64,000 nt of DNA, taken from contig JAJFKX010000049.1 of NCBI GenBank assembly GCA_021772985.1, positions 186,001 through 250,000 of the forward strand. The letters run 5' to 3'. This DNA is from Gammaproteobacteria bacterium. GTDB lineage: Bacteria > Pseudomonadota > Gammaproteobacteria > Xanthomonadales > Wenzhouxiangellaceae. A program made the translations under genes and the position numbers. The notes beneath the pieces are model-generated. The model saw nothing but the letters and a program-made list of their open reading frames with translations. It was not told where the DNA came from and made no database searches. Within the stretch, counting starts at the first letter, position 1. Each line of letters starts with the position of its first letter. This document shows, piece by piece, positions 16,416 to 25,114 of this stretch.

Positions 16416-16633
16416 ACTTAAGCTAAATTGTTACCATTAAACGGGGTATGGTTTTCTGTTGCATTTTTTGCTCCGGGTAGTGCTGTTTTTAGCGTGATTT
16501 TAGTGATGCTTTGCCCCGTATAAGTGATGCTGCTCAGGCTGTGTGTAGGGTATAGATGTGATATAATAATTTAGTCGTATTGCATTAAATCAAATCATTG
16601 ATTTTAAAGATTAAAAACCCTCCAGGAGTAGGA

Positions 16634-17650
16634 TTGAGACATTCTGTGAACAATGTTTTCGCAAGCATCGGCCGGGCCTGTCTGGTCCTGTTTATGGCCT
16701 ACTTTACGTTCGGCGTTGCCAATGCCCGACCTGAGTTGGGTCCACCCAGTATCAAACTGCGCACCAATTTATCAAACGTGGTGATTGCCGAGCTGCACAG
16801 TGTAAGCGCAGATCACAAACTGACCTTCAGCATTGGCGAAAACCTGCACAATGAAGCTGAGCAATCCATTATCATTCGCAGTGATGCATTAACGGCAGCC
16901 AGATTAGGTACCGGACAAACCTATGTTATTGCGTACGTGGGATGGGATGTTCAGCGCTTCCCACGTGTAGTCAAACCCCGCCGTGATGGTGCCGTCATTA
17001 TTAATCTGCCGGGTGCGATGCCTGCTATTTTTCAGCTAAATCCCGACTTGATTGAGTTATTAAAATGGGATTTGAAAAAATCGCTGCAAAGTCCGGATGC
17101 CATGCTGGCATTGATTTTACGGGGTATGGCTGAGTCCGACCCACAATTGCAAAACTTTTTCAGCACAGAACTGGTAACACGTCCCAAACTTTATAGAAAA
17201 TTGACTGCAGAGCAGAAGCAGGCTGTGGCTGGTCACATAGAAGATAGTGGTTATTCGCCTCTGGGGCGAAATTTAATGCTGGGCGACCAGGCATTCAGTG
17301 AGTTGTTGCTAAGTCAAAATGCAAAGCTGAAAATTTCTCGAGAAATTCTAATCCACCACCCGATACATGTGGAATTCGGATCACAATACGGCGGTTTAAT
17401 CCGGACAGCTATGAAAGTCGTGGAAAGTACAGGGGACGTGGACGATGCGACTAAAGCACAACGCTGGCTGAGCAGCAATCAACCGACTTTGGTTGAATCG
17501 GCTGCAGCGGTTATTTATGAAGTCAATCCTGAAACACTGATAAGCGCGCTGGAGCAAGCCGCTGAATACTCTTTGCTGGAAAAACACAGCAGGGATGCAT
17601 TGGTCAATTTGCTTCGGCGTTATCGCCTTTCTCTGGCGGAAAATCTATAA
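16634..17650 (+). CDS. Exported protein, first copy of small module subunit
   Basis: About 338 residues from the TTG at 16634, chosen because AGGAG lies 5 nt upstream and a signal peptide ending FGVANA then begins directly; a TTG at 16598 is the longer alternative. After cleavage comes a beta-rich N-terminal part (IKLRTNLSNVVIAELHSV, LGTGQTYVIAY) and then a long alpha-helical, HEAT-like C-terminal part. It is clearly paralogous to the protein at 20815-21813, sharing the LHN.A...I.I block, the GA.PAIF.LN block and the GMA.SDP...FF block. It precedes a ~980-residue secreted protein by 60 bp. No known family recognised. Confidence 0.7.
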   Translation: MRHSVNNVFASIGRACLVLFMAYFTFGVANARPELGPPSIKLRTNLSNVVIAELHSVSADHKLTFSIGENLHNEAEQSIIIRSDALTAARLGTGQTYVIAYVGWDVQRFPRVVKPRRDGAVIINLPGAMPAIFQLNPDLIELLKWDLKKSLQSPDAMLALILRGMAESDPQLQNFFSTELVTRPKLYRKLTAEQKQAVAGHIEDSGYSPLGRNLMLGDQAFSELLLSQNAKLKISREILIHHPIHVEFGSQYGGLIRTAMKVVESTGDVDDATKAQRWLSSNQPTLVESAAAVIYEVNPETLISALEQAAEYSLLEKHSRDALVNLLRRYRLSLAENL

Positions 17651-17710
17651 CGAAAATTGCGGATAAGAGTTTAGAGTTTTAAGTATTTAAATTTTGATGA
17701 GGTAAACGTT

Positions 17711-20650
17711 ATGCATAATATAAATATGCGCCGTCTGGTCCTGGCAATTGTTGCCATCGGCTATAGCGGTTTAGCTCTGGCAGTAGCACCTCAGAGTACG
17801 ACACCACAACAGGTGATCAACTCTGTAAGGCATGATACTTCGCCACCATTGGCGGAATTATTGCAAATTGCTGCTGCCAATCAGGCTGCTGATCCGGCAC
17901 CACCGTCACCGCCGGATTTTGTCTTTCCTAATTTCGATGAGCCAGGCAATTCCGCCACAACCCTGGATCAGACCTTTGTTGGTGCAGCGGCAGTAGGTGC
18001 TCAACGTGGCGGCGGGCTTGGAAGTGCACCGCCATTGATAATATCTGTTGATGGCATCGGGCAATCAGATGCCGCAGGTGGCGGTTTGCCACCGGATACC
18101 AATGGTGACGTTGGTACTGATGTTTATATTCAATACATTAATACCGATTGGGTGATTATCGACAAAGCTACCGGCAACTTTGTTGCCCCCGGGGTGATGG
18201 AAGGTAATACATTTTGGGCTGGCTTTGGTGGTGTTTGTGAAACCAGCAATTCAGGCGATCCTATCGTCCTATATGACAAGCTCGCAGATCGCTGGGTATT
18301 TACCCAATTCACCGGTTCCGCAACCAATCGTCAATGTTTCGCGGTTACCACCGGCAGTGACCCGGCTGGGCCATATAATCGATATGAATTTGATTTTTCG
18401 CCAGACTTCAATGATTATCCACATATTTCCGTTTGGACCGATGCAAGCGGTGAGCGTAGTGGTTATTACTTAACCACACATGATTTTATGCCGGATGGAA
18501 TGGGTGGATTTAATTTTCTGCAGGCATCATTCAGCGCAGTTGACCGGGATGCGATGCTGGCTGGTGATCCTGCCAGCATAGTGCGTTTTACCAACACGGG
18601 ATTTGCTGCCGCCAGTTCATTCGGGGCTTTATCCGCACATCTTGAAAGCACCGAACTACCACCAGCCGGTACCTGTGCACCGTTTGCTCATAACCGTGCA
18701 GACCTGGATAGCTATTTACTGTGGGATTTGTGTGTGGATTGGGATAACCCTGGTCAATCAACTTTGACCGGGCCAAGCGTGCTGGCTGCCAATACTGTTT
18801 TTGATAATGCGGTTGATAATGTGCCGCAACCACCGCCTGCACCGGCGGGCTCTGAGTTGGATAACTTTGTCGGGAATACCATGTACCGCGTCAGCGCGCG
18901 GGCTTATCCAGCAGCCAGTGGCTTACCTGTTGAGCTGGTCGTGAATCATTCTTCCAATGCAGGCAATGGGATAAGTGGTGTACGTTGGGTGCAGGTTGCT
19001 TTAGCCACTGGAGATGAGGTGTTCCTTGGTGGTTTTGAAACCAGTGAGCCATTGCCCGATGGCCAGGCAAAAATTCTGGATCAAGGATTGTATTCTCCGG
19101 ATGATGATTTCCGCTGGATGGCTGGCATTTCGATAGATCAAAGCCGAAATATCGGCCTTGGCTACAGTGTCTCCAGTGCTACTACATTTCCCAGTGTGCG
19201 TTACACAGGACGTACACCCAGTGAGCCACCAGGGATGTTGTTGGATGAACAAAGCTGTGTAGTTGGCAGCGGTGTACAGACTTTTGTTGATGCAACCGGC
19301 CGCGCCGGTCGTTGGGGTGATTATTCTTCTATGAGCATTGATCCAGTGGATCAATGTACTTTCTGGTTAAGTGTTGAATATATTACCAATACCGCAACTG
19401 CTGATTGGGAAAACCGGGTGTGCTCATTCAGTTTTCCGGATTGTGGTGATCCAACTTTCTTTGTCAGCTCCGATTTCAATCGGCAGATTAACTCTTGCAC
19501 CTTAAATGATTCTCCTCAGGCCAATGTTAATGTCCAGTCCCTCGGTTTTACCGATCCTGTGATGCTCAGCGCATCAGGCCTGCCTGGCGGAGTAAGTGTA
19601 GTATTTGATAATACGACTATAAGCACTTTCCCAGGGGGCACAGGTATTACCATTAATGGCTTGAGCAGTCAGGGTGATGGTGGATTCTCATTCAATGTTG
19701 ATGCTGTATCGGGTGGCACCACTCGTTCGTTGGACTTTGATATCACAACTTCCTCTGGGGTGGTAACAGCGCCGGTATTAACTGCGCCTGCTAATGGCAG
19801 TGAAGCGACTGTACGTCCTACATTTACCTGGAACGCGGTAGCGGGCGCAACCAGTTACCGGATTGAGGTTGCCACTGACGCTGGGTTTACCAATATTATC
19901 GCCACCGGTGAAACTGCAAGCACATCATTTGTTGCTTCACAGGTTTTTGATTCTGGTGTAACCTTGTTTTGGCGGGTGCGCGGTGTAAACAACTGTGGTG
20001 GCGGTAGCGCAGCGTCAGCAAGTTTTACTACCATACCACCGGGTGTGTGCCCCGCAGGCACCTCACCAAACGTGGTATTCCAGGATGACCTGGAAGGTGG
20101 TGCACCAGGCTGGACCATGCCATCAAGTGGTGTAGGACCAGAACTTTGGGCATTAAGCAATGTACGTCAAAACAGTGGTACTTTCTCATTCCTGGCAGTG
20201 GATCCACCAACTCAGTCTGATCAGTTCCTGGTTTCACCACCGATTAACGTACCCCCGATTGGACAGGCGCCGTTAACGCTGAGCTATTGGAATTTCCAGA
20301 ATATGGAGGCCAATACCGGTTCAGGTACAGACGCCTGTTGGGATGCCGGGCTATTGGAAGTCAGTACTGATGGCGGAAACAACTTCGTTCAGATAGCCGA
20401 TTCTGTATTATTGACTGATCCGTATAATGGGACAGTGACCGTCAATGGCGCATCCACCATTAGTGGATTGTTCGGATGGTGTGCAGATGACATCGTACCT
20501 GCATCCGGTGATCAGGAAGTGGTATCGGTAGTGGATATATCCGCACTGGCTGGTCAGACGGTTCAATTCCGTTATCGGTTGGCATCTGATGGTGCTGCCG
20601 GTGATGAAGGTTGGTACATCGATGATATTGAAGTTCAGGGTTGTCAATAA
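17711..20650 (+). CDS. Large multidomain secreted protein, copy 1
   Basis: 979 residues. Signal peptide (about 1-25), then an N-terminal block VRHDTSPPLAELL. A propeller-like region follows: PPDTNGDVGTDVYIQYIN, GDPIVLYDKLADRWVFTQF, and GRWGDYSSMSIDPVDQCTFW near residue 535. Next come a fibronectin-III-like domain (about 695-775, TFTWNAVAGATSYRIEVATD) and a C-terminal MAM/jelly-roll-like domain (about 790-979) ending DEGWYIDDIEVQGC. A VFLGGFE segment lies near residue 437. AGGTAA precedes the ATG. The mixture suggests an extracellular binding or adhesion protein; no catalytic residues recognised. Its paralogue follows at 21971. Confidence 0.72.
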   Translation: MHNINMRRLVLAIVAIGYSGLALAVAPQSTTPQQVINSVRHDTSPPLAELLQIAAANQAADPAPPSPPDFVFPNFDEPGNSATTLDQTFVGAAAVGAQRGGGLGSAPPLIISVDGIGQSDAAGGGLPPDTNGDVGTDVYIQYINTDWVIIDKATGNFVAPGVMEGNTFWAGFGGVCETSNSGDPIVLYDKLADRWVFTQFTGSATNRQCFAVTTGSDPAGPYNRYEFDFSPDFNDYPHISVWTDASGERSGYYLTTHDFMPDGMGGFNFLQASFSAVDRDAMLAGDPASIVRFTNTGFAAASSFGALSAHLESTELPPAGTCAPFAHNRADLDSYLLWDLCVDWDNPGQSTLTGPSVLAANTVFDNAVDNVPQPPPAPAGSELDNFVGNTMYRVSARAYPAASGLPVELVVNHSSNAGNGISGVRWVQVALATGDEVFLGGFETSEPLPDGQAKILDQGLYSPDDDFRWMAGISIDQSRNIGLGYSVSSATTFPSVRYTGRTPSEPPGMLLDEQSCVVGSGVQTFVDATGRAGRWGDYSSMSIDPVDQCTFWLSVEYITNTATADWENRVCSFSFPDCGDPTFFVSSDFNRQINSCTLNDSPQANVNVQSLGFTDPVMLSASGLPGGVSVVFDNTTISTFPGGTGITINGLSSQGDGGFSFNVDAVSGGTTRSLDFDITTSSGVVTAPVLTAPANGSEATVRPTFTWNAVAGATSYRIEVATDAGFTNIIATGETASTSFVASQVFDSGVTLFWRVRGVNNCGGGSAASASFTTIPPGVCPAGTSPNVVFQDDLEGGAPGWTMPSSGVGPELWALSNVRQNSGTFSFLAVDPPTQSDQFLVSPPINVPPIGQAPLTLSYWNFQNMEANTGSGTDACWDAGLLEVSTDGGNNFVQIADSVLLTDPYNGTVTVNGASTISGLFGWCADDIVPASGDQEVVSVVDISALAGQTVQFRYRLASDGAAGDEGWYIDDIEVQGCQ

Positions 20651-20701
20651 ACCCTGGATAGTAATAACAATGACAATCTAAACGGTTGTTGGAAAATGTT
20701 A

Positions 20702-20730
20702 GTTAACACCCGCCACTGGCGGGTGTTAAC
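20702..20730. terminator. Hairpin terminator after module copy 1
   Basis: A perfect 13-bp stem (GTTAACACCCGCC / GGCGGGTGTTAAC) with a 3-nt loop, 51 bp after the secreted-protein stop. The T-tract is weak (TTAT). Its core is shared with the hairpin after copy 2. Confidence 0.75.
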
Positions 20731-20814
20731 TTATCTGCAGGTCAGAGTTTGATCAGTTGATAGATTGACGCTATTTCCACTTGGGCTTGAACCGTTATAC
20801 TCGCTGAGCTGTAA

Positions 20815-21813
20815 ATGAGGTATCGTGACTTGAAAATACGGTTTGCAATAGCTGCCTTAGCAGCTTGTCTGTTAATTAATTCAACTTATGCAGCAAAAGC
20901 AGCGCCGCCGCCCAGCGTTGCATTACGCACTGAAGTTTCATACGTCAACATTGTTTTGCTTGAATCCGTCAACCACACACAGAATGGTTCAGCTCAGCTC
21001 AATGTCGAACTGTTGGAGGACTTACATAATCACGCTCAACCCCGAATAGTTATTAATGCGACCCCAGGTTTGGCTGCCCAACTTGAGGTCGGATCTGAGT
21101 ATGTGGTGGCTTATTACAGTGTCAAAAAAATTCGAGATAATGAACTGAAGCATTACCAGCCTTTATCTGATGGTCCGGAGTTGATGCATGTTGATGGTGC
21201 TTATCCGGCTATTTTTAAACGCAATGCGCATTTAATTCAACAATTGACCAGTTCGCCGGAACTTGCACAATCTGATCCGGATACACTGATACAGAATATC
21301 TTTTCAGGTATGGCTGCAACTGATCCGGTTATCAAGGCATTTTTTGTGCGTGAAATCATTAACTGGGATGCACTGCATTCGTCGCTTAAAACAAAACACT
21401 ATCAAAGCCTGTACCAAGCCTTAATATCGCCCAATGCCACCCCTGATACGGTTAGCGCATTGTTGGAATCACGTGAAAATTTACACTCGGCAATAGGCGT
21501 TAAGCGAATCGGTGCACAGGCACACAGTATCCTGCAAGGCATGTCGGTGAATCTGGATATCAATGGCCAAGAGCCGACAATGGTATTGAATGCTCTGATA
21601 TTTGCTGAATCTCACCAGCTGGCAGACTGGCACACAATCAGCCGCTGGACGCGGGCAAATATTCCAACATTGGCAGAACGGGCATTATTGTTGTTAGCAT
21701 CATTGGACGCTGATAAAGCATTAGAGTTAGCCAGGCAGCGGGTTACCGAAACACGTTTGAACCAGGCTACTCGGCGTGCGGTGCAACGGTTTATTACCAG
21801 TCGAGAGCGTTAA
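20815..21813 (+). CDS. Exported protein, second copy of small module subunit
   Basis: 332 residues with a signal peptide (hydrophobic segment IAALAACLLINSTYAAKA). It is paralogous to the product at 16634-17650: the same order of a beta-rich N-terminal part (VALRTEVSYVNIVLLESV, LEVGSEYVVAYY), GAYPAIFKRNAHLI, GMAATDPVIKAFF and a helical C-terminal region. A TTG at 20830 with AGG upstream is a possible alternative start that also leaves a good signal peptide. It is followed by the second ~990-residue secreted protein. No family recognised; conservation as a pair suggests the two proteins work together. Confidence 0.7.
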   Translation: MRYRDLKIRFAIAALAACLLINSTYAAKAAPPPSVALRTEVSYVNIVLLESVNHTQNGSAQLNVELLEDLHNHAQPRIVINATPGLAAQLEVGSEYVVAYYSVKKIRDNELKHYQPLSDGPELMHVDGAYPAIFKRNAHLIQQLTSSPELAQSDPDTLIQNIFSGMAATDPVIKAFFVREIINWDALHSSLKTKHYQSLYQALISPNATPDTVSALLESRENLHSAIGVKRIGAQAHSILQGMSVNLDINGQEPTMVLNALIFAESHQLADWHTISRWTRANIPTLAERALLLLASLDADKALELARQRVTETRLNQATRRAVQRFITSRER

Positions 21814-21970
21814 GTAACAACCCAGTTGTAGTTTGCATTGACTGGTTGTGTGGTTTTGCACTTTTAACAGCCGCTGTTTTTGATGGTGACACTATACGTA
21901 AGTTGCATAGTGCGCTATATTTGCAAGGTTTTACCAATCCCTACTCACTCTTAATTGGATGGTCTTAATT

Positions 21971-24934
21971 ATGGGTCAATATCGTTGTGCTTATCTTTGT
22001 GTAGCAGCTGGGCTGCTGTTGACGGGCATGCAAGCGCTTGCTCAAACTTCTAATCCGCCGCTAACAAGCTCATCGGTTAAACACGATGTGTCACCACCTT
22101 TGGAAGAGTTGATCGCTGTGTATCAGCAAAAACTCGACAATGGCATTTCACCCAATGTTGCACCGGGTTTTGTGATACCCAATATTCTGGAAATTGATGA
22201 AAGTGCCATCGTGGACAAGCTTCCAGCAGCGCCCGCAACCAGGGGACCTATCGAAGGGGTTAGTGGTGCAGCCACTCCACCGGTGATAGTTAGTGCCGAT
22301 GGTTATAGCACATCAGATAATCTTACCCAGGGGCTTGGGAATTTTATCCCTCCGGATACCAACGGTGATGTAGGGCTGAATTTTTACATCCAGTACGTTA
22401 ATGTTGGTTGGATTGTATTAAATAAATCAGATGGAAGCGTTGCAGCAGGGCCGTTTGTCGGTAATGTATTTTGGCAAGGCTTTGGTGGACCCTGTGAAAA
22501 TGACAATGCTGGTGATCCCATTGTATTATTTGATAAGCTAGCCCAGCGCTGGCTGTATAGTCAATTTACCAGTGGTGCGAATACCGATGGCCGTCAGTGC
22601 TTTGCCATTTCCACCACCAGTGATCCGCTTGGTCCGTATAATCGGTATGAATTCCTGTTTCCTGGAGAGTTCAACGATTATCCGCACATTGGAATATGGA
22701 CTGACCAAACAGGTGACCGTAGCGGTTATTACTTCGTAACGCATGATTTTATTTTGCCGAATACATTTAATCAGGCTTCTTTTGCGGTGGTGGAAAGAGA
22801 TGAAATGCTGGCAGGTAATCCAGCCCAATTTGTTCGTTTCACCAATACGGCATTTGAGGGTTTTAGTGGATTTGGCGCATTACCACCACATCTGGAAAGT
22901 TTCACCATACCCACTGCAGGCAGCTGTGCACCATTTGTACAGGGACGCCCGGATATGCGTGGTTACCTGTTAACTGATCTGTGTGTGGATTGGGATAACA
23001 CTGCCAATTCAACACTGGGTAATCAACGCATAGCTGATGCTGGTGAAAGTTGGGCGCCGGGCCCAGGCAGCGTTATACAGCCCGGTGGGAACGCAGGTAA
23101 TGCACTGGATACATTATCATCGGCCGGTCGGATACTTTATCGTGCATCTTATCGTGCTTATCAGCCTGGAGAAGGCAGAGCCGATACCATGACCGTTAGT
23201 TTCCCGGTTGATGTGGGTGGTGGTCAGGCCGGTTTTCGCTGGGCCCAAATTGATTTTCCCAACATGGAAGATTTGTTCGTCGGCGGCTTCGAAGAAGCTG
23301 AAGCCACTTTCCCAGCTGCCTCAGGTAACGTAAAAAACCAGAATGAATATGCACCGGATGCGACAACAGACCGGTGGATGTCTGCTATCTCTGTCGATCA
23401 GGATGGTAACCTTGGAGTAGCCTATACTGCATCCAGTGATGAGACAGCACCGCCGATATTTCCGGGTGTGCGTTTCACTACAAGAAAATTCGATGACCCG
23501 GTCGATACCCTGCGAGCTGAGCAAATTTGTGTTGATGGCGGAGGTATTCAAACGGATGGTGCAGGTAGATGGGGAGATTACTCATCCATGAGTATCGATC
23601 CTGTGGATGAATGTACCTTCTGGGCTTCAGTTGAATATCAATTGACCACAGCTGCGCGTAACTGGAGCAACCGGGTGTGCTCGTTCCGCTTTGATGATTG
23701 TGGTGACGCAAACGCATTTTTCTCCAGCGATGTTATAGCAACCGCCAATGTATGCAGTGCGACAGCAAGCAGTGTTGGGTTTGATTTTGGGCTAATCGGC
23801 ATCAATGGTTTTTCGGAATCAACAACCCTGGGCAGCAGTGGCTTACCGCCGGGAACCAGTGTCAGTTTCCCCAGTGGAACTGTGAGCACATTTCCGACCT
23901 TTGACCGGTTTTCCATGCAGGGAATTAACGGCTTAGCGGCAGGCAACTATTCCTTTGATGTAACAGGTTCATCGGTGTCGGCTAATCCAGCTATTGCATA
24001 TAGTCTGGTGGTATCAGATTCCGCAGTCGCAGTAGCAAGTAACCTGACTGCACCCGCCAATGGCGCCACCGCAGTAGATCTGAATCCACCTTTTACATGG
24101 TCTTCGGCTACCGGTGCTTTGCAGTATTTAATCGAAGTGGCTACAGATGCAGGCTTCAGCAATTTGCTGGTATCTGAAATTGTCAGTGGCACTTCATTTA
24201 CTTCTTCAGTCTCATTTGACACCAATACTGAATTGTTTTGGCGGGTCACAGCTTTGAATAACTGTGGACTAGGAGCGGTATCAACTGCAGCCAGCTTCAC
24301 CACCGGCAGTTTTGTGAGCGGTACCGCAGCGGAATGTACCGGCGGCACAACGCCTAACGTGGTTTTCTTTGATGATCTTGAAGGTGATGTAAGTGACTGG
24401 ACACTACCGGTAGCCCCAGTGGGTACCAATACCTGGCAGCAAAGCACTGTTCGGGCGTTTTCAGGAACATCCTTCTATGCCGAGGATTCTAATGTTGCTT
24501 CTGATCAATATCTGGTCTCACCAGCAATTACCTTGCCTGGAGCAGGACAGCAGCCGATATCATTAGCTTATTGGAATTTCCAGAATATGGAAGCCAATAA
24601 CGGTACCAATCCGGATGCTTGCTGGGATGGCAGCCTGTTGGAAATTTCCACAGATGGTGGGGCAAACTTTACCCAAATAGCCGGCAGCGATCTGCTGGGT
24701 GATCAATACAATGGCAATATTACCAACAATGCCCCAAGTCCGATTTCTGACCTGGATGCATGGTGTGCAGACGATATCGTGCCGGCCAGTGGCGACCAGA
24801 CCGATATCTCAGTGGTGGATTTGAATGCTTTTGCTGGACAAACAGTGCAATTTAGATTCCGCGTAGGCACTGATGGAAATACCGGTGATGAAGGCTGGTA
24901 TATAGATAATGTAACGGCCCAGGGCTGCCAATAG
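21971..24934 (+). CDS. Large multidomain secreted protein, copy 2
   Basis: 987 residues from the ATG at 21971, with GGATGG upstream; the in-frame ATG at 21959 is an alternative. It has a signal peptide ending MQALAQ, then VKHDVSPPLEELI, PPDTNGDVGLNFYIQYVN, GDPIVLFDKLAQRWLYSQF and GRWGDYSSMSIDPVDECTFW. A fibronectin-III-like domain (PPFTWSSATGALQYLIEVA) and a C-terminal MAM/jelly-roll-like domain ending DEGWYIDNVTAQGC follow. DLFVGGFEEAE is the counterpart of the GGFE segment in copy 1. Domain order is identical to the product at 17711-20650, with considerable divergence between them. Likely extracellular; function unknown. Confidence 0.72.
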   Translation: MGQYRCAYLCVAAGLLLTGMQALAQTSNPPLTSSSVKHDVSPPLEELIAVYQQKLDNGISPNVAPGFVIPNILEIDESAIVDKLPAAPATRGPIEGVSGAATPPVIVSADGYSTSDNLTQGLGNFIPPDTNGDVGLNFYIQYVNVGWIVLNKSDGSVAAGPFVGNVFWQGFGGPCENDNAGDPIVLFDKLAQRWLYSQFTSGANTDGRQCFAISTTSDPLGPYNRYEFLFPGEFNDYPHIGIWTDQTGDRSGYYFVTHDFILPNTFNQASFAVVERDEMLAGNPAQFVRFTNTAFEGFSGFGALPPHLESFTIPTAGSCAPFVQGRPDMRGYLLTDLCVDWDNTANSTLGNQRIADAGESWAPGPGSVIQPGGNAGNALDTLSSAGRILYRASYRAYQPGEGRADTMTVSFPVDVGGGQAGFRWAQIDFPNMEDLFVGGFEEAEATFPAASGNVKNQNEYAPDATTDRWMSAISVDQDGNLGVAYTASSDETAPPIFPGVRFTTRKFDDPVDTLRAEQICVDGGGIQTDGAGRWGDYSSMSIDPVDECTFWASVEYQLTTAARNWSNRVCSFRFDDCGDANAFFSSDVIATANVCSATASSVGFDFGLIGINGFSESTTLGSSGLPPGTSVSFPSGTVSTFPTFDRFSMQGINGLAAGNYSFDVTGSSVSANPAIAYSLVVSDSAVAVASNLTAPANGATAVDLNPPFTWSSATGALQYLIEVATDAGFSNLLVSEIVSGTSFTSSVSFDTNTELFWRVTALNNCGLGAVSTAASFTTGSFVSGTAAECTGGTTPNVVFFDDLEGDVSDWTLPVAPVGTNTWQQSTVRAFSGTSFYAEDSNVASDQYLVSPAITLPGAGQQPISLAYWNFQNMEANNGTNPDACWDGSLLEISTDGGANFTQIAGSDLLGDQYNGNITNNAPSPISDLDAWCADDIVPASGDQTDISVVDLNAFAGQTVQFRFRVGTDGNTGDEGWYIDNVTAQGCQ

Positions 24935-24984
24935 CCTGAACACTGAATCGGTAGCCGGTAATACCGGTTGATAGAGTACTGAAT

Positions 24985-25012
24985 AAAAACACCCGCCATG
25001 GCGGGTGTTTTT
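24985..25012 (+). terminator. Intrinsic terminator after module copy 2
   Basis: An A-run then ACACCCGCC / GGCGGGTGT then a T-run (about 13 paired bases counting A-T pairs, tight loop), a classic bidirectional intrinsic terminator. The stem core matches that of the hairpin at 20702-20730. Confidence 0.9.
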
Positions 25013-25114
25013 ATATGCTTGGTGGGAACAGGAAATATTTCGTAGTTTTGTTGTATACTCAGAGCCAATAATGAGTTAGAGGCATACTTGCAACGCTGAT
25101 AAACGGAGATGGTC

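Follow-up and report, generated by a model that had tools for sequence, protein, structure and literature searches.

Exported accessory proteins encoded beside a single client family are an already known kind: the lipase-specific foldase (Lif) is encoded next to a lipase, its client, and has an all-helical mature part. TIMP-type NTR domains, with which the proteins considered below share a weak structural likeness, have conserved disulfide cysteines. Here we describe a pair of exported proteins, S (small) and L (large), encoded in a stretch of 64,000 nucleotides (hereinafter the window; positions 186,001 to 250,000 of the forward strand of contig JAJFKX010000049.1, assembly GCA_021772985.1) from a gammaproteobacterium of the family Wenzhouxiangellaceae. 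Two consecutive units, S1-L1-hairpin and then S2-L2-hairpin, occupy the plus strand, and the four open reading frames (ORFs) lie in the order and on the strand that the initial annotation had given them; the spacing, which it considered retained, is so only roughly (S1 and L1 are 60 nt apart, S2 and L2 145 nt). By eye, all four proteins start with a hydrophobic stretch that leads to an AxA-like site and lacks a lipobox cysteine, and both S and L seem to leave the cytoplasm via cleavable signal peptides. Adjacency, branch specificity, co-occurrence and matching phylogenetic trees strongly support the dedicated link that had been suggested from the retention of the pairing through strong divergence, and we consider it highly probable that the two form a dedicated exported pair. 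With a probability of roughly 0.48, S serves as an exported chaperone or escort dedicated to the propeller in one branch of L proteins; that S physically binds L, that the propeller is the target and that the role is that of a chaperone is what we infer from the observations presented here.

Sequence searches with S yielded 24 matches in 19 of the 398 genomes of the order, and a profile added two, for a total of 26 S genes; in a sample of the class, the profile detected S in two of 369 genomes, both from the same order. The initial contig scan with the two S sequences as queries gave no match, and a single S query missed a third S gene of the window genome, which lies away from this locus, was found by the profile alone and likewise adjoins an L gene, so that counts obtained with single sequences are lower bounds. 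Two of the 26 genes (L077, L082) sit at contig ends, where a neighbor could not be sought, and all 24 testable ones adjoin an L gene, one of these being a contig-end fragment (L090) with a cut propeller that was retained in the adjacency tally only. Furthermore, the S profile found S in 12 of 50 genomes reached through an L gene, and L stands next to S in all eight further S regions (seven from the L-reached genomes and one from G053), two of which (L236, L237) repeat records already counted. Of 40 S-L pairs, all but one, with a gap of 3163 nt, are separated by 194 nt or less; many of these pairs entered the set via the L search, so that the 24 of 24 given above is the fairer measure. S lies upstream on the same strand in 34 of the 40 pairs, in divergent orientation in three, downstream in two and in convergent orientation in one. 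Given that position and orientation vary while the adjacency persists, S probably acts in trans rather than through coupling on one transcript. Clustering of the neighboring ORFs in 38 loci revealed no third partner, that is, no gene besides S and L present in more than five loci; several of the remaining clusters resemble long antisense or spurious frames, and the genes flanking the locus, one of 243 aa and one that we take to be SEL1-like, are common only to close relatives.

The converse does not hold for L as a whole. Among 106 propeller rows, S is present within 5 kb in 41 and absent in 56, and nine are too near a contig end to be tested. The initial annotation had named L homologs that usually occur without S as an observation that would speak against the link; taken literally this is the case (56 of the 97 testable rows), but most of the S-less rows are so because they belong to other propeller branches (47 of 57). 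In the propeller tree, a single branch (SH-aLRT support 99) holds 40 S-linked, 10 S-less and two untestable rows, whereas outside it none of the 47 testable rows has S (seven are untestable). Within the sub-branch of the window copies, 33 of 33 testable rows are S-linked, and one is untestable. The S label changes eight times along the tree, against a mean of 32 for shuffled labels. Three details bear on these tallies: 11 loci repeating earlier records were dropped before counting, the second L gene of L112, 3 kb from its S, was scored as S-less in the tree, which brings the S-less rows to 57, and L095 duplicates part of L096, so that the S-less rows of the branch are overstated by one.

Co-occurrence across genomes follows the same branch. 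In the family, represented by 43 genomes, S was found in five, the same five that were seen to carry an L of this branch; four genomes with propellers of other branches at E 1e-10 (G002, G004, G011, G034) showed no S by single-sequence search or on the stretches examined. Six of 43 genomes reached via a propeller of another branch possess S, in each case beside a branch L. In a later sample, some genomes and genes of which repeat earlier ones under new labels, no S accompanies any of the 16 propellers from other branches, and one of seven branch rows, in G007, has it (E 9e-30). Genomes reached via a branch L that lacks an adjoining S encode S elsewhere in five of five cases (G762, G763, G765, G766, G767), although G766 and G767 look like repeats of G010 and G009. 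The window genome (G000) carries 13 propeller-family genes, some of them in tandem, on contigs C4, C8, C12, C28, C31, C33, C35, C38 and C44; seven of these belong to branches in which no S neighbor was seen, and the other six are branch L genes, against three S genes, a ratio that suits a helper with several clients.

The S and L trees match. Across the 40 pairs, the distances in the two trees correlate at r 0.82 (the maximum in 5000 permutations is 0.24), and 25 of 37 splits are held in common, compared with a maximum of three in 200 relabellings. The groups that contain S1-L1 (type 1) and S2-L2 (type 2) are supported at 96 or more in each of the trees and, since both types occur within one genome, descent of the genomes cannot explain these groups. 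The distances between S proteins are about twice those between propellers (median ratio 2.05). The unequal numbers of S and L genes and the faster change of S fit a helper, without deciding the matter.

The two S proteins of the window are clearly paralogous, aligning well beyond chance, whereas a failure to align was what the initial annotation had named as a refutation: BLASTP gives E 3e-24 with 73 of 260 residues identical (28%), and the local alignment score is 261, while 200 shuffles reach no more than 56. L1 and L2 are identical at 481 of 1001 positions (48%), and alignment scores of S against L stay inside the shuffled range. The S-L unit is duplicated as a whole. The duplication noted for the locus is confirmed, but it is ancient rather than a fresh tandem copy. 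Related genomes keep the flanks, namely the 243-aa gene upstream and the SEL1-like gene, of 169 aa, downstream; between them the sister genome G009 has the order S2L2-S1L1, the reverse of that in the window, and G007 has S2L2 alone. In genomes from other families of the order, single-sequence searches find one of the two types without the other. Taken with the reversed order in G009, this separate occurrence points to an old split and a labile tandem arrangement.

The hairpins that follow the two units have predicted energies of -24.2 kcal/mol (z -7.0) and -20.8 kcal/mol (z -5.5), respectively, and the same stem core follows L1 and L2, as the initial annotation had observed. The pattern ACCCGCC...GGCGGGT occurs at three sites in the 4.85 Mb window genome, two of them at this locus, and the reversed pattern, taken as a control, was counted once on each strand. 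The core ACACCCGCC/GGCGGGTGT is also located 3' of the last L gene of the locus in G009, G007 and G008, and in G009 a hairpin of altered form separates the two units. The shared core is best explained by a hairpin that was copied along with the unit. A terminator scan reports neither hairpin.

With respect to the folds, the structural predictions agree with the domain description offered from sequence, in which S has a beta-rich N-terminus and a HEAT-like C-terminus and L consists of a propeller followed by FN3-like and MAM-like parts. The S2 model (308 residues, 31 sequences, pLDDT 95.6) comprises a strand-rich N-terminal barrel, the first ~110 residues being mainly beta strands, and then a helical solenoid. 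A Foldseek search with the S model gave no match at E <=0.001; the top matches include armadillo-type solenoids and C3/C5 NTR (C345C) domains, the latter weak (best E 2.6e-3, to C3; TM ~0.2). In VIA-align comparisons, the C-terminal two thirds of S align with HEAT/armadillo solenoids at Z 10-11.5, the best alignment (Z 11.5) covering 168 residues with a root-mean-square deviation of 3.6, although Z scores of this size are common among helical repeats. Among 22 S members, Pfam yields HEAT_2 in two (best E 0.016), DUF7656 in one and Death in one, all of them weak matches, and no Pfam or NCBIfam family covers either S or the L propeller. Sequence comparison of S with solved structures returned nothing at E 10. 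No membrane anchor is visible in S by eye. In the stretch in which cysteines were counted, 27 of 43 S sequences have none and 16 have one or two; a disulfide chaperone was considered and rejected because no cysteine is conserved in S.

The L2 model (964 residues, 42 sequences, pLDDT 85.4) is predicted to contain a seven-bladed propeller (~105-580), an Ig/FN3 region (~590-790) and a jelly-roll/MAM-like region (~795-991). Its propeller, model residues ~77-553, scores Z ~20 against WD-type propellers and CylK and ~18 against integrin alpha. In sequence comparison with solved structures, L retrieves Ig/FN3-type chains alone at E 1. The C-terminal end matches MAM-like models and the C-terminal parts of M36 models, all under the cut-off: NF038112 and NF038111 score 49-82 bits against L, in the C-terminal part only (cut-offs 1500 and 1700), and the last 120 to 200 residues score 67.7 and 82.4 bits against NF038112. 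Other L members bear fn3, PKD and similar C-terminal modules. When the 40 S-linked L proteins were compared with FN3 and MAM profiles built from the window, 30 matched both, three matched one and seven neither, L075 among the latter being cut by a contig end and L087 being nearly propeller-only. As the modules behind the propeller vary among the S-linked L proteins, the propeller together with the N-terminal segment is probably the common target of S.

Six positions distinguish the propellers of the branch: C323, C342, C524, C574, H262 and H311 (L2 numbering) are conserved in 90-97% of the S-linked but in 12-18% of the S-less rows. Inside the branch, however, each of the four cysteines also occurs in nearly all S-less rows (9 or 10 of 10), against none of the 46 S-less rows outside it. 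Their presence in S-less branch members means that they mark the branch and not a neighboring S, and the extra cysteines and histidines were for this reason rejected as a signature of S. Judging from their spacing, it is a fair guess that the cysteines form two extra disulfides in branch L proteins.

Under the reading that we prefer, S would be a soluble two-domain protein, an OB/NTR-like barrel joined to a HEAT-like solenoid, that recognizes the propeller of one L branch and would help it to fold, to acquire ions and disulfides, or to leave the cell. L would then do the actual work, its propeller being carried on a stalk of Ig/FN3 and jelly-roll domains. Several observations weigh against this proposal. 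Ten rows of the S-linked branch (nine distinct genes) have no adjoining S, and in the later sample six of the seven branch rows have none on the stretch examined, although three of these six repeat known genes and two come from a contig of only 3.3 kb; in G764, a 2.2 Mb record in which the branch L is cut by a contig end, the profile finds no S. The presence of three S genes against six branch L genes in the window genome could equally mean that some L proteins need no S. The agreement between the trees is owed partly to the shared descent of the genomes. Finally, comparison of S with described chaperone families gave no match, either in Pfam (22 members) or, for the S proteins of the window, in Pfam and NCBIfam.

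The main rival, to which we assign a distinctly lower likelihood, is that S is a permanent subunit of a stable secreted or surface-exposed S-L complex, in which it caps or regulates the propeller. The matching trees and the tight pairing speak for such a complex, as do the two-domain, binding-type fold of S and the lack of an anchor visible by eye. Against it stand the three S and six branch L genes of the window genome and the ten branch rows with no adjoining S, so that a fixed 1:1 pairing is not forced. An improbable alternative casts S as an inhibitor or protector by which L activity is kept silent until export, in the manner of an immunity protein or a TIMP-type inhibitor. The weak NTR (C345C) matches of the S model and the roughly twofold faster evolution of S relative to the propeller hint at such a role, but L1 and L2 contain no peptidase or other enzyme domain recognizable in Pfam or NCBIfam, and the scarcity of cysteines in S departs from TIMP-type NTR domains. 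It is very improbable that S and L are mere neighbors by descent with no functional link, given that, even though most pairs come from one bacterial order and vertical inheritance preserves adjacency, the association persists through changes of orientation, is shared with no other gene family in more than five of 38 loci, extends to records from other taxa and was duplicated as a whole unit.

Those other records, in which pairs are also found, belong to Acidobacteriota and Alteromonadaceae. Among the carriers on record are the cultured species Marinicella meishanensis and Tahibacter caeni. Three loci titled Acidobacteriota OFTM223/OFTM233 (L156, L158, L165) encode S together with branch propellers and come from the same OFTM series as the Gammaproteobacteria metagenome-assembled genome (MAG) OFTM396. 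The S and branch L genes in Acidobacteriota MAGs may reflect transfer between phyla or a mix-up in binning.

Both L proteins of the window also contain a short motif, [IL]Fx[DNG]GFE (hereinafter GFE; window positions 19019-19039 and 23273-23293), which in L2 lies in a low-confidence propeller loop of the model. Elsewhere it is mostly found at the very C-terminal end of proteins that look exported. Its DNA pattern has 39 matches in the window genome, against five for the reversed control; 26 of 30 inspected matches lie at most 21 codons from a stop (three of the 26 in frames of fewer than 45 codons), and the remaining four are the two L proteins of the window and two others. When 396 genomes of the order were scanned, the number of matches was 20 to 144 in many of them, with 0 to 9 for the control, and did not rise above the control level in many others. 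The codons of the motif vary, which indicates that it is kept as a peptide. With a slightly wider expression, the motif was found in the 40 S-linked L proteins in the loop in 19, at the C-terminus in two, elsewhere in two and not at all in 17, compared with 15 at the C-terminus, one elsewhere, none in the loop and 40 without it among the 56 S-less L proteins. Two S-linked proteins, L085 (IFGDGFD) and L118 (LFGDGFD), have a near-motif in the FN3 region, 274 and 266 residues before the end, as if a tag could shift between loops and the C-terminus. Possibly, the motif is an undescribed sorting or processing tag; no description of it was found in literature titles and abstract openings, where some of the matches retrieved resemble chance runs of letters. 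It resembles the GlyGly-CTERM and MYXO-CTERM tags in being short, terminal and numerous, but by eye shows neither a hydrophobic helix nor a basic tail. S as a general reader of the tag was rejected, because tagged L proteins (L131, L132, L140, L150) occur in genomes in which the S profile finds nothing, and the 17 untagged S-linked L proteins also speak against it. It is improbable that S is the first of an exported chaperone class that escorts or presents a tag relocated, in this branch, from the C-terminus to a disordered propeller loop.

The features of the locus are listed in Table 1. S1 begins with a TTG codon, preceded by AGGAG at 16624-16628. PADLOC models of anti-phage defense return no family for S1, L1, S2 or L2 at E 0.1.

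Table 1. Coordinates of the two S-L units within the window.
Feature	Position	Strand	Remarks
S1, small exported protein, 338 aa (type 1)	16634..17650	+	OB/NTR-like barrel and HEAT-like solenoid, fold transferred from the S2 model
L1, secreted propeller protein, 979 aa	17711..20650	+	VFLGGFE tag-like motif at residues 437-443
Hairpin after unit 1	20701..20731	+	Stem core ACACCCGCC/GGCGGGTGT, loop ACT, no T-run 3'
S2, small exported protein, 332 aa (type 2)	20815..21813	+	Mature part free of cysteine
L2, secreted propeller protein, 991 aa	21959..24934	+	Predicted propeller, Ig/FN3 and jelly-roll/MAM-like domains; LFVGGFE at residues 439-445
Hairpin/terminator after unit 2	24983..25014	+	Core as in unit 1

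The present analysis assigns a specific partner to S, an uncharacterized exported family, and a testable requirement to one branch of a propeller family that is spread over several phyla. Should S prove to be a chaperone, its architecture would be new among dedicated helpers of the periplasm, and it would be of practical aid in the production of such propellers. The coexistence, in one genome, of branch propellers with S and propellers of other branches without it provides a built-in control.

As for the relation to known systems, the pair and both of its families appear to be undescribed in Pfam, NCBIfam and the titles and abstract openings of the literature, in line with the initial impression that no system of this composition had been reported; the individual parts, however, invite several comparisons. 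The L propeller resembles those of integrin alpha, CylK and glycoside hydrolases (Z 17-20) and, by eye, has DxNxDxG-like loops, but the likeness is known here from predicted structure, with identities of only 5-9%. The tail of L is similar to the C-terminal modules of myxosortase- and rhombosortase-dependent M36 peptidases (NF038112, NF038111) and to the InhA-like MAM domain, whereas the peptidase domain of M36 enzymes was not found in L1 or L2. The barrel of S is reminiscent of NTR (C345C/TIMP-like) domains through the weak Foldseek matches described above, yet it lacks conserved cysteines and is fused to a helical solenoid, which itself resembles HEAT/armadillo solenoids at a level usual for such folds. 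Compared with Lif, S is not all-helical, as its N-terminal ~110 residues form a beta-rich barrel, it shows no anchor by eye and no Pfam chaperone match, and its client would be a propeller instead of a lipase. What S shares with Lif is the general design of an exported accessory protein, encoded beside a single client family and endowed with a solenoid-like binding surface.

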